A stretch of 21,862 bases of DNA from a virus. Numbering within the stretch: position 1 is the first letter of the stretch; every line of letters begins with the position of its first letter. Under the pieces are notes generated by a model. It had not been told where the DNA came from and searched no databases. It saw only the letters and a program-made list of their open reading frames with translations. The position numbers and the translations under genes were made by a program. Positions 3,903-7,975 of this stretch are shown here, piece by piece. The stretch covers positions 1 through 21,862 of the IMG/VR virus record IMGVR_UViG_3300035034_001882; one strand, given 5' to 3'.

Positions 3903-3958
3903 ATTAAGCACTACAATTAGAGGTACTCAACAGAGTAAAGTAACCTAAAGGAGACCGC

Positions 3959-4090
3959 TTGCTCGCAGCGTTTAGCGCATACACAATTAGTGTTAATATA
4001 ATAGTAACACTATACATTACTTTAGTCAACGCTAAAGTACTGCCTAACATCGCTTACTTACGCAACAAAGTAACGTATGGTGATACTTAA
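3959..4090 (+). CDS. Probable 43-residue membrane peptide upstream of the regulator
   Basis: The reading frame begins with TTG at 3959. A strong AAAGGAG (3947-3953) sits five bases upstream. It stays open for 43 codons and ends in TAATG, overlapping the ATG of the regulator gene. The regulator has only GGTGA as its own site, so translational coupling would make sense. The peptide starts MLAAFSAYTISVNIIVTLYI, a hydrophobic stretch long enough to span a membrane, and ends in a polar tail with Lys and Arg. The same DNA carries the leftward promoter and both palindromes, so part of the pattern could be chance. I recognise no family. Confidence 0.5.
   Translation: MLAAFSAYTISVNIIVTLYITLVNAKVLPNIAYLRNKVTYGDT
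3988..4012. promoter_or_regulatory. Palindrome A, operator-like, over the leftward -10
   Basis: TAGTGTTA (3988-3995), nine bases, then its exact reverse complement TAACACTA (4005-4012). It covers the -10 hexamer of the leftward promoter (4001-4006), and its centre also holds a TATAAT on the + strand (3997-4002). TAGTGTT recurs at 4627-4633 and 5943-5949. A repressor site is inferred from position and symmetry. Confidence 0.6.
4001..4029 (-). promoter_or_regulatory. Leftward early promoter for the recombination-integration operon
   Basis: Read on the minus strand: TTGACT (4029-4024), a 17-base spacer, TACTAT (4006-4001). Start near 3994. This is the strongest sigma70-type match ahead of the YqaJ-ERF-SSB-int operon. 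Palindrome B covers its -35 and palindrome A its -10. Confidence 0.7.
4018..4039. promoter_or_regulatory. Palindrome B, operator-like, over the leftward -35
   Basis: TACTTTAG (4018-4025), six bases, then CTAAAGTA (4032-4039), an exact inverted repeat. It contains the -35 TTGACT. Related AAAGTAAC words occur at 3937-3944 and 4067-4074, suggesting several half-sites for one regulator, perhaps the protein encoded at 4090. Confidence 0.55.
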
Positions 4091-5314: not shown

Positions 5315-5572
5315 CTATTCTGGCACATTATCCCGCTTACCAAAAGGCACCCCTGATTTTTGAATCACTAAAGACATCGGCACCCCCAACAAATCAGCAA
5401 GCTGACGAGCCTCACCTATTTGAATCTGGCGCAGCCCATTGATAGCCCGATGCAAAGACGTATGGTCCATTACTCCGCCAGATCTACTTGTCATGTGCCG
5501 AGCCAATCCTCGAACAGACTTATACGCACTGGCTTCAATCTGCTTTTCAAACCACTTAGTGTTAATACTCAT
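5315..5572 (-). CDS. Helix-turn-helix regulator, candidate lysogeny repressor of switch 2
   Basis: This is an 85-residue, single-domain DNA-binding protein. SVRGLARHMTSRSGG (about 19-33) leads into DHTSLHRAINGLRQIQIGEA and RQLADLLGVPMSLVI, a helix-turn-helix layout common in small phage regulators. It is divergent from the regulator at 5697, the classic repressor/Cro arrangement. No ribosome site precedes the ATG. The predicted -10 (TATGCA, 5589-5584) places the transcript start about five bases before it, so the mRNA may be nearly leaderless, as lambda cI is from PRM. A 19-bp operator-like site covers that -10, which would allow autoregulation. Which protein of the pair maintains lysogeny is uncertain. 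Confidence 0.75.
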   Translation of the reverse strand: MSINTKWFEKQIEASAYKSVRGLARHMTSRSGGVMDHTSLHRAINGLRQIQIGEARQLADLLGVPMSLVIQKSGVPFGKRDNVPE

Positions 5573-5580
5573 CTAAACAC

Positions 5581-5599
5581 TGTTGCATAAACCTCAACG
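5581..5599. promoter_or_regulatory. Operator-like site O1
   Basis: TGTTGCA-TAAAC-CTCAACG, 19 bases. It matches the perfect palindrome at 7957-7975 at 5 of 7 left-arm and 6 of 7 right-arm bases with the same five-base spacer. It covers the -10 of the leftward promoter for the gene at 5315. Confidence 0.6.
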
Positions 5600-5612
5600 C
5601 CTTGCAATGCAA
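5584..5612 (-). promoter_or_regulatory. Leftward promoter of the regulator at 5315
   Basis: On the minus strand: TTGCAT (5612-5607), 17-base spacer, TATGCA (5589-5584). The -35 lies in the palindrome TTGCAATGCAA (5602-5612). The -10 is a weak match, and the call rests mainly on spacing and position. Confidence 0.4.
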
Positions 5613-5650
5613 AATGAAGTTTACCTTAACATCTTGTATTTTTTATTGGA

Positions 5651-5669
5651 TGTTGAGAAAAACTCACCA
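5651..5669. promoter_or_regulatory. Operator-like site O2
   Basis: TGTTGAG-AAAAA-CTCACCA, 19 bases, one arm mismatch from the perfect form. It lies 14 bases before the ribosome site of the rightward regulator gene at 5697, where a bound protein would block that gene's expression. Confidence 0.65.
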
Positions 5670-5696
5670 CTAATCAGTGAGCAAGGAGCAACAACC

Positions 5697-5945
5697 ATGA
5701 TTATGAAACCAGCTGAATACGTAGTAAAGCAATTCGGAGGCGTTAGAAAAACCGCTAGAACTATAGGAAGAAGCCCCGCCGCCGTATGCAAATGGAATAA
5801 AAGCAAGGCTGACGGTGGACTCGGAGGCACAGTGCCTAAAGGACTTCAAACTACAATCTTGCAAATGGCCGAAGACCTTGAACTAGACATTACGCCCGCT
5901 GACCTAATATTAGGCAGAGAAATAGCCGATGAAGATGTAGACTAG
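5697..5945 (+). CDS. Cro/YdaS-like helix-turn-helix regulator
   Basis: The 82-residue form starts at ATG 5697, which has AAGGAG eight bases upstream. The frame is open back to an ATG at 5583, but that extension runs through both operator-like sites and lacks a ribosome site. The segment EYVVKQFGGVRKTARTIGRS, then PAAVCKWNKS, is the helix-turn-helix. GGTVPKGLQTTILQMAEDL and a LDITPADLILGRE ending are typical of small phage YdaS/Cro-like proteins. It is the first rightward gene before the terminase operon and divergent from the regulator at 5315, so it probably plays the Cro role. Its stop lies immediately before operator-like site O3. Confidence 0.75.
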   Translation: MIMKPAEYVVKQFGGVRKTARTIGRSPAAVCKWNKSKADGGLGGTVPKGLQTTILQMAEDLELDITPADLILGREIADEDVD

Positions 5946-5964
5946 TGTTGAGATAAGTGCAACG
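5946..5964. promoter_or_regulatory. Operator-like site O3 before the terminase genes
   Basis: TGTTGAG-ATAAG-TGCAACG. The left arm is identical to the perfect site at 7957; the right arm keeps 4 of 7 bases. It begins right after the stop of the upstream regulator and ends just before the terS ribosome site. Confidence 0.45.
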
Positions 5965-5978
5965 TAAGGAGTTTATAC

Positions 5979-6452
5979 ATGGCTAAAGAAGCAAAAAAAA
6001 CAGAGCTAAACGAAAAGCAAAAGCTCTTTTGCCAGGAATATTTAAAAGATCTTAACGCCACTCAAGCTGCTATTAGAGCGGGATATTCAGAAAAAACTGC
6101 GAAATCCCAAGGCCAACGCCTGTTGACTAATGTTTACATTAAAGAGTTTTTGGAGAAACAAAACGAGCAAAGACAAGAGCGAGTGAAAGTAGACGCTGAC
6201 TACGTACTAAAAACAATTACCGAAACCAGTGAACGTTGCGCCCAGAAAGAACAGGTCATGGAATACTGTCCGGCAGAAAAAGCAATGGTGCCTACAGGTG
6301 AATGGAAGTTCGAACATCGAGGCGTATTAAAAGGATGCGAGCTTTTAGGTAAACACTTAAAGCTGTTTACGGATAAGGTGGAGCATTCGATTGATAAGAC
6401 TTTAGAAGATATTATTACGGAATCGTTTAAGAAGGAGAAAGAGAATGATTAA
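5979..6452 (+). CDS. terS: Terminase small subunit
   Basis: This 157-residue protein belongs to the Terminase_2 type. The N-terminal DNA-binding region reads LNEKQKLFCQEYLKDLNATQ (9-28), then AAIRAGYSEKTAKSQGQRLL, the hallmark helix-turn-helix of these subunits. The middle (VDADYVLKTITETSERC and after) is the oligomerisation region. The Lys/Glu-rich end (KKEKEND) probably contacts the large subunit. It recognises the packaging site and activates the motor ATPase. AAGGAG lies seven bases before the ATG. Its end overlaps the start of a 17-codon micro-ORF that leads into terL. Confidence 0.9.
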   Translation: MAKEAKKTELNEKQKLFCQEYLKDLNATQAAIRAGYSEKTAKSQGQRLLTNVYIKEFLEKQNEQRQERVKVDADYVLKTITETSERCAQKEQVMEYCPAEKAMVPTGEWKFEHRGVLKGCELLGKHLKLFTDKVEHSIDKTLEDIITESFKKEKEND

Positions 6453-6498
6453 CAGTTTAAGGCATGTAAAAGAAATTAACGGCAAAGACGAGGAGTGA
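6445..6498 (+). CDS. 17-codon micro-ORF linking terS and terL
   Basis: ATG at 6445 has AAGGAG (6432-6437) seven bases upstream and overlaps the terS end by eight bases. The peptide MINSLRHVKEINGKDEE ends in TGA, which overlaps the terL start as GTGA. terL has no usable ribosome site of its own, because GAGG directly touches its GTG. The micro-ORF would therefore carry ribosomes across the gap so they can reinitiate at terL. The act of translation may matter more than the peptide. Confidence 0.5.
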   Translation: MINSLRHVKEINGKDEE

Positions 6499-7937
6499 AA
6501 CTAGCCGCTGAGAAGATTAGATATTGGCGTGAAAACCCGATTCAAGCGGTGCGTGATAACTTCAAAGTCGAGCCTGATATTTGGCAGAGAAAAGCACTAG
6601 AAGCTTTTGTATCTAATGATAGAGATAAAATACGCATCGCCCTTCGCGCCTGCGCCGGCCCTGGCAAGTCAGCGGTCCTTGCATGGTGTGGTTGGCTATT
6701 CCTTTTATGCTTCTGTGAAAAGGGTGAACACCCAAAGGGTGCAGTCGTTTCAATCACTCAAGACAATTTAAAAGACAATCTATGGTCTGAAATGAGCAAG
6801 TGGCAGCAACGCTCACCTATTTTAAAAGCTACGTTTACCTGGACGCAAACTAAGATCTTTCAAAACGATTATCCTGAAACGTGGTTTCTAGCTGCCCGCT
6901 CTTTTCCAAAGTCAGCTGACACTGAAACACTTGGAAAGACTTTATCAGGTGTGCATGGAAAGTATGTCTTATTCCTAATAGATGAATCAGGCGCTATTCC
7001 GATTCAAGTAGGAAAGGCAGCGGAGCAAGCAGTCGGTGAAACGCTCGCGCGTGGCGGGTTTGTTAAGATCATGCAAGCTGGAAACCCGATAAGTTTAGAC
7101 GGGATGTTATATGCAGCTGATAAATCAGATGATTGGTTTAAGATTAAAATTACCGGCGACCCCGATGACCCTGAGCGCTCACCAAGAATTGATGCAGAAT
7201 GGGCGCGTGGACAGATAGATAAGTATGGACGTGATGACCCCTGGGTTATGGCCTATATTTTGGGGCTGTTTCCAAAGTCTTCTATTAACTCTCTACTTAG
7301 TGAAGACGATGTTATGCAGGCAATTAACCGTGTGATAAAGCCAGAGGACATTTCTTTTTCTCAAAAACGATTAGGCATAGATGTGGCCAGGTTCGGACTT
7401 GATTCTACTGTCATCTTTCCAAGACAGGGTTTGTGTGCGTTTAATCCTGTAGTAATGAGAGGGGCCGATAACCCACAAATTGCAGCGCGTGTGATGAAGG
7501 CAAAGCTTAAGTGGGGCTCACAAGTTGAGTTTGTAGACGGCACCGGAGGCTTTGGCGGCGGCGTGGTAGATTTTCTAAAACAAGCTGGCTATCATCCAAA
7601 AGAAATTCACTTTTCATCTAAGGCCATTGATGAGAGATACTATAATAAACGAACCGAAATGTGGTTTATGATGAGTGAATGGATTAAGGGAAACGGCGGC
7701 TTGCCAAATGATAATGACTTGCTTGTTGAGCTTTGCGCACCAACTTATACAATTAGAAATGGTAAGCTATTACTTGAGCCAAAAGAAAAGATCAAGGAGC
7801 GCCTTGGCAAATCACCGGATAAGGCCGATGCATTGGCGTTAACATTTGCTCTACCAGAAATGGTAAGAACCGACAATATCCCAGGACTAGAGACTAATTT
7901 TAACAAGGCAAAGACCGACTTTGACCCTCTTTCATAA
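6495..7937 (+). CDS. terL: Terminase large subunit (packaging ATPase-nuclease)
   Basis: This is a 480-residue motor protein that drives DNA into the prohead and cuts it. Walker A is RACAGPGKSA (51-60; K58), and Walker B with the catalytic Glu is VLFLIDES (148-155; D153, E154). The RNase H-like nuclease domain has acidic residues in GIDVARFG (D286), EFVDGTGG (D348) and PDKADALAL (D455). These cover both active sites, so the protein looks intact. The start is GTG at 6495; a stop lies six codons upstream and no other start fits the conserved N-terminus. It overlaps the micro-ORF stop by four bases. The packaging mode (headful or site-specific) cannot be read from this window. Confidence 0.95.
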   Translation: MKLAAEKIRYWRENPIQAVRDNFKVEPDIWQRKALEAFVSNDRDKIRIALRACAGPGKSAVLAWCGWLFLLCFCEKGEHPKGAVVSITQDNLKDNLWSEMSKWQQRSPILKATFTWTQTKIFQNDYPETWFLAARSFPKSADTETLGKTLSGVHGKYVLFLIDESGAIPIQVGKAAEQAVGETLARGGFVKIMQAGNPISLDGMLYAADKSDDWFKIKITGDPDDPERSPRIDAEWARGQIDKYGRDDPWVMAYILGLFPKSSINSLLSEDDVMQAINRVIKPEDISFSQKRLGIDVARFGLDSTVIFPRQGLCAFNPVVMRGADNPQIAARVMKAKLKWGSQVEFVDGTGGFGGGVVDFLKQAGYHPKEIHFSSKAIDERYYNKRTEMWFMMSEWIKGNGGLPNDNDLLVELCAPTYTIRNGKLLLEPKEKIKERLGKSPDKADALALTFALPEMVRTDNIPGLETNFNKAKTDFDPLS

Positions 7938-7956
7938 ATAGCTTTGACATGACGTG

Positions 7957-7975
7957 TGTTGAGATTACCTCAACA
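7957..7975. promoter_or_regulatory. Operator-like site O4, perfect palindrome
   Basis: TGTTGAG-ATTAC-CTCAACA: seven-base arms, exact inverted repeat, five-base spacer. It sits between terL and the acetyltransferase gene. A consensus TTGACA (7944-7949) lies just upstream and TATATT (7989-7994) downstream, but they are too far apart to form one promoter. Confidence 0.7.

Follow-up and report, generated by a model that had tools for sequence, protein, structure and literature searches.

A dispersed family of predicted Cro operators at the switch and around the terminase genes of a viral genome and its podovirus relatives

The present analysis identified no late-gene activator in these small podoviruses, and what times the expression of their packaging genes is not obvious. 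The locus described here raises the question of whether one small regulator could act both at a genetic switch and on the terminase genes. The window (the whole stretch of DNA analysed, a 21.9-kb viral record that is possibly a fragment) starts with a leftward integrase-recombination operon, followed by a helix-turn-helix (HTH) gene at 4090 and by a divergent pair of small HTH genes, one on the minus strand (5315–5572, 85 aa, CI-like) and one on the plus strand (5697–5945, 82 aa, Cro-like). Next come terS, on the plus strand, for the terminase small subunit (5979–6452; Pfam Terminase_2, E 9e-31), terL, on the same strand, for the large subunit (6495–7937; PHROG terminase large subunit, E 5e-22), a GNAT-like gene, and then the head genes. 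At the left end, positions 60–130 resemble the 3' half of a tRNA gene, with an anticodon-loop-like CTTCTAAG and the ending GGATCGCCA; ARAGORN detected no whole tRNA there, and this tRNA-like end next to the integrase is likely to be an attachment site.

A preliminary description of this DNA, made from its letters, proposed that four 19-bp sites of the form TGTTGAG-N5-CTCAACA constitute an operator family. All four were found where it had placed them, and all are intergenic. Two lie in the divergent switch: TGTTGCATAAACCTCAACG (5581–5599), 8 bp from the start codon of the 5315 gene, and TGTTGAGAAAAACTCACCA (5651–5669), upstream of the cro-like gene, with three mismatches and one mismatch to the pattern, respectively. 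The third, TGTTGAGATAAGTGCAACG (5946–5964; three mismatches), fills the interval between the cro stop codon and the ribosome-binding site of terS, and the last, the palindrome TGTTGAGATTACCTCAACA (7957–7975; no mismatch), occupies the 76 bp that separate terL from the GNAT-like gene. Across the family, 4 to 8 of the 9 base pairs are symmetric, with 8 of 9 at 7957. The count of four nevertheless omits a fifth, less well supported site, TGTTGAGCTTTGCGCACCA (7724–7742), within terL. On the minus strand, a terminator-like hairpin at 5662–5682, whose 8-bp stem is followed by TTTTTCTC, overlaps the 5651 operator in its right half.

When the window was scanned with the pattern, allowing up to three mismatches, it gave six matches, a number reached by none of 100 shuffles (mean 1.3); the two beyond the original four are 7724 (two mismatches, within terL) and 2115 (three mismatches, within the ssb gene). 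Since this consensus came from the very sites being tested, an independent test was made using a motif built from relatives only. Its top five matches in the window were 7957 (21.7 bits), 5946 (19.2 bits), 5651 (17.8 bits), 7724 (17.5 bits), and 5581 (16.6 bits). For sites scoring 16.5 bits or more, of which the window has five, permuted motifs give an expectation of 0.04 (at most 1 in any of 300) and an order-3 Markov model one of 0.035. Four of the five lie in non-coding DNA, which makes up 5.8% of the window (P about 5e-5).

Which protein might read these sites? The 5697 protein (P0002) matches Pfam P22_Cro with an E-value of 1.6e-5 and 25.0 bits, below the curated cut-off of 30.2, and a Cro relative, L059, clears that cut-off (30.7 bits). 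Its AlphaFold model has a pLDDT of 92, and the best PDB matches found by Foldseek are the Cro proteins of Xfaso1 and N15, then that of P22, with E-values above 0.001 and probabilities of up to 1.00. By profile and predicted fold, the protein is thus a Cro of the P22/N15 type: sequence and fold agree with that family, and the operators lie in a divergent switch region. Homologs were gathered from phage records and viral contigs by alignment search, 35 remaining after dereplication. Single-sequence searches of viral contigs with the 5315 or the 5697 protein gave no confirmed relative, and a scan of bacterial genomes gave two Cro relatives only and no close prophage.

In 31 of the 35 dereplicated relatives, a site of the form TGTTG-N9-CAACA (up to two mismatches) is present upstream of cro, usually at two fixed places, mostly starting 26 bases and also 105–170 bases before the start codon. 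The site often falls on the promoter −10, the right half-site itself being the −10 (e.g., TTTACG-17-CAACAT in L079). A counterpart of the 5581 site was found immediately upstream of the homolog of the 5315 protein (P0001) in L052. Half-sites match within each phage and vary between phages, to an extent that none of 1000 label permutations reached; AG at half-site positions 6–7, for example, occurs in 9 of the 14 half-sites of the window versus 14 of 156 elsewhere. This agreement within phages and difference between them is what one would predict if each set of operators tracks its own regulator.

The relatives also carry such sites far from the switch. Whole records contain 3–13 sites each, totals that include the one to three switch sites, as against 0.3–0.7 for motifs permuted and run on the same genomes, a null that keeps the sequence structure. 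The excess is clear in DC33 (12 versus 0.6), G005 (13 versus 0.5), ctQRb9 (6 versus 0.7), and zth2-2 (9 versus 0.6), of which DC33 and G005 are related to each other and to G007 and are not independent; weaker cases are ctEw122 (6 versus 0.7), Carin1 (3 versus 0.3), G004 (4 versus 0.6), and G008 (4 versus 0.5). Many operator copies above chance are what a multi-site dispersed regulon should show, and dispersed sites are a property of the group. Several sites recur at equivalent positions among the relatives: before exo, ahead of the terminase operon, and in the space that follows the tail nozzle gene. In G001, which has a 5315-type protein and an integrase, an operator is centred on the TATAAT of the exo promoter TTGACA-17-TATAAT; at the nozzle/h33230 gap no promoter is evident, though the site recurs in DC33-like phages, ctEw122, and zth2-2. 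Limnohabitans phage DC33 (L134, PQ492659.1) is itself entered in GenBank under Inoviridae, yet has podovirus terminase, portal, and tail genes.

In the relatives, a small HTH gene opens the terminase operon and an Sf6-type terS comes next. Within the 300 bp upstream of this operon, 13 of 14 dereplicated loci have a site scoring 11 bits or more, against 0.25 with permuted motifs (maximum 7); at 13 bits, the figures are 11 of 14 against 0.07. Moreover, a −10-like hexamer stands at a fixed distance (offset 25) from the terminase site, with a mean of 4.0 of 6 matches over 13 loci and 2.9 for the next best offset, a strong signal that is not independent of its choice because the offset was chosen by scanning 25 positions and some loci are close relatives. 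This fixed distance places the left half-site on a −35-like TTGnnn, and the site in relatives usually covers the −35 of a promoter-like TTGnnn-17-nAnAAT. Promoter elements, here as elsewhere in this work, are consensus readings made by eye or by a simple scan. The sites thus sit at promoters of several operons in the relatives (cro, exo, and terminase), placements that argue for occlusion of RNA polymerase, while in the window the switch alone is clear in this respect. A conserved small HTH gene (motif GYRIG-SHHNA) directly precedes terS in many podoviruses (L134:7138-7398, L145:15830-16090, L136:36495-36830).

The link between switch and terminase made in the preliminary description is therefore borne out in the sense that the same class of site occurs at both in the relatives and is lacking in the permuted and Cro-less controls. 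As to conservation of the individual sites, the switch sites recur as a class, and 5946 has a counterpart by analogous position only because, among the relatives collected, none has this Cro with terS directly behind it. A promoter with the geometry seen in relatives was sought at 5946 and 7957, including by a promoter scan, and was not found; how these two sites act is accordingly a guess, since neither shows a clear promoter.

The CTCAACA at 3926, proposed as a half-site through which the regulator might communicate with switch 1, did not hold up as a member of the family. Outside the full sites, CTCAACA/TGTTGAG occurs in the window only at 3926 and 14915, near the uniform expectation of 2.7, and 3926 falls in another inverted repeat, TACTC-AACA-GAGTA; as an operator it was rejected as a chance occurrence belonging to a different palindrome. 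A better candidate at this switch is the palindrome TGTTA-N9-TAACA (3991–4009), inside TAGTGTTA...TAACACTA (3985–4040), which overlaps the −10 of a promoter-like TTGACT-17-TACTAT facing the exo operon. It has the 5-N9-5 geometry of the operator family, but TGTTA replaces TGTTG, and since its 8.9 bits are not above chance for the family it was left out of the count.

The reading that we regard as probable, on the strength of the sequence comparisons, is that the 19-mers are operators of the 5697 Cro, and probably of its 5315 partner also, through which the switch would be repressed and the terminase region blocked. An alternative is the one first proposed, namely that the sites belong to the lysogeny repressor 5315, which would silence the late genes in the manner of stoperators, Cro being secondary. 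The 5315-type protein indeed occurs in exactly the two records that bear an integrase, the window and G001 (2 of 2, versus 0 of 14 for the others), the switches of BcepIL02 and BcepMigl, which include a 5315-type protein, contain weak sites of this class in their gap, and, in common with stoperators, 5946 and 7957 occupy short stretches between genes. Against this, neither a 5315-type protein nor a tyrosine integrase was found in 14 of the 16 records examined that have this Cro and dispersed sites, which makes Cro the probable common reader; given that records in IMG/VR are not always complete, failure to find either in them does not prove true absence. The sites are palindromic, whereas the stoperators of L5 are asymmetric, span 13 bp, and are recognised by a monomer (PMC9283540). 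The 5315 protein, with a low-confidence model (pLDDT 73), shares 34% identity with the ‘cI-like’ gp08 of BcepIL02 and 39% with the N-terminal portion of its G001 relative, whose ORF is longer and continues into a C-terminal part that the 5315 protein lacks. Relatives of TerL without this Cro, used at first for conservation, became a negative control since they lack both Cro and strong sites: they contain no site of at least 16.5 bits in 397 kb (0.4 expected) and, at a loose threshold, 10 versus 4.3 expected, near background. A reading with 5315 as the main repressor is rather doubtful. The proposal that a lysogeny regulator silences late genes retains its tie between switch and terminase region, but as a pure lysogeny reading it is too narrow, given that most Cro records have neither a 5315-type protein nor a tyrosine integrase, and the shared trans-acting factor would be the Cro-like 5697 protein. 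The 5315 protein is likely to be a second reader in the temperate members.

Other explanations concern single sites. That 7957 works chiefly as an RNA hairpin, weakly terminating transcription or stabilising the mRNA behind terL, and is not an operator seems quite improbable: it does form a perfect 7-bp stem with a 5-base loop (−7.1 kcal/mol), followed by GTTTACTTTT, and was flagged by a terminator scan, but the T tract is poor, that scan yields 8 such sites versus 3.8 expected, and the stem is an exact operator and the best match in the window to a motif from the switches of other phages. A bifunctional element is possible. It is rather doubtful, too, that terS and the GNAT-portal genes have weak internal promoters, with 5946 and 7957, respectively, as the operators through which these are repressed by occlusion. 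The position of the terminase-upstream site of relatives on a promoter-like −35 speaks for this, but the −10 for 5946 would be GTTTAT (5971–5976), with a transcription start then past the terS ATG, and 7957 has no −10 at the right distance. As to 7724 and the lower matches at 2115 and 2465, the chances are even that they are fortuitous occurrences in coding sequence. Coding matches in the window number 3, where synonymous shuffles give 0.9 and 5 in 150 of them attain that count; with a threshold of 15 bits the figures are 1 and 0.3, and the E-L residues encoded at 7724 are conserved in TerL; on the other side, 7724 has the phage-specific TGTTGAG half-site, and coding sites in DC33 (8 versus 2.0) and ctQRb9 (4 versus 0.9) exceed synonymous shuffles.

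If the 19-mers are Cro operators with the consensus TGTTG-N9-CAACA, they would be read by the Cro-like protein and probably by its CI-like partner, which we infer to act as repressors rather than as activators. The sites at 5581 and 5651 would then be the operators of the divergent switch, and those at 5946, 7957, and possibly 7724 would fall within a transcription unit that runs cro-terS-terL-GNAT. Once dimers had bound, the cro/late promoter would be closed, and transcription would meet additional obstacles ahead of terS and beyond terL. Expression of the packaging and late genes would thereby be prevented in the lysogen, and for as long as the regulator had not been diluted or inactivated. 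For 5946 and 7957, an elongation roadblock and a weak, unrecognised promoter are both possible, as is, for 7957, a hairpin with a second role.

This arrangement may be compared with several known systems. It resembles the Cro/CI switch of the P22/N15 type in its divergent CI-like and Cro-like genes, its palindromic operators on promoter elements, and its P22/N15/Xfaso1 Cro fold; it differs in its operator class (TGTTG-N9-CAACA), in the extra operators outside the switch, including those around the terminase genes, and in that relatives here retain Cro and the dispersed sites while having neither a CI-like protein nor an integrase. In the Bcep22-like phages (Lessievirus) BcepIL02, BcepMigl, and JC1, too, a cI-like gene of the 5315 type and a small HTH gene are transcribed away from each other, and the gap between them holds weak sites of this class, but the partner there is an RsaL-like HTH_92 protein and not P22_Cro; two such sites lie between the cI-like and HTH_92 genes (L132:4898-4971, L133:3853-3926).

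To our knowledge, the C1 repressor of phage P1 is not a Cro-type protein. Its 22 operators are, like those described here, many dispersed sites of one repressor, but they are asymmetric 17-mers (PMC8546580). In the SPbeta prophage, one regulator, MrpR, similarly acts on repeated intergenic elements, the SPBREs, across the prophage (PMC10516654), but MrpR is tyrosine-recombinase-like and its element is 15 bp long. The cluster A mycobacteriophages (L5, TipsytheTRex) have many genome-wide repressor sites, some in short intergenic gaps as here, but their stoperators are 13 bp long and asymmetric, follow the direction of transcription, and are recognised by a monomeric repressor that has a special second domain (PMC9283540). 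The near-palindromic 19-mers of the window are probably read by a small Cro-type protein, and the candidate readers, of 82 and 85 aa, do not combine an HTH with a stoperator domain; the likeness to stoperators initially drawn does not extend to the form of the site or the make-up of the reader. Because the sites are palindromic and the likely reader is of the Cro type, the system belongs to none of the P1, L5-type, and SPbeta systems, though it is similar in its working. We conclude that this is a genuine system of Cro operators at multiple sites, which we class as a Cro/CI switch variant whose operators are dispersed; among the papers searched, none was found that describes a Cro with dispersed sites in podoviruses.

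The matching sites at switch and packaging genes suggest that one small protein governs several steps of infection. We lean, by a modest margin, towards a model in which Cro without CI would serve as a global timer in a broad group of integrase-less podoviruses, controlling the recombination operon and the late terminase operon as well as the promoter of its own gene, and in which a CI-like partner would share the sites in temperate members such as the phage of the window. With a Cro operator conserved ahead of the terminase operon, in most cases on a −35-like hexamer, the question of timing would have a direct and testable answer, and Cro would act genome-wide and no longer as a protein of the local switch alone. 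This would hint, too, at how a lysis–lysogeny switch can come about, a CI-like protein being added that reads Cro operators already in place.
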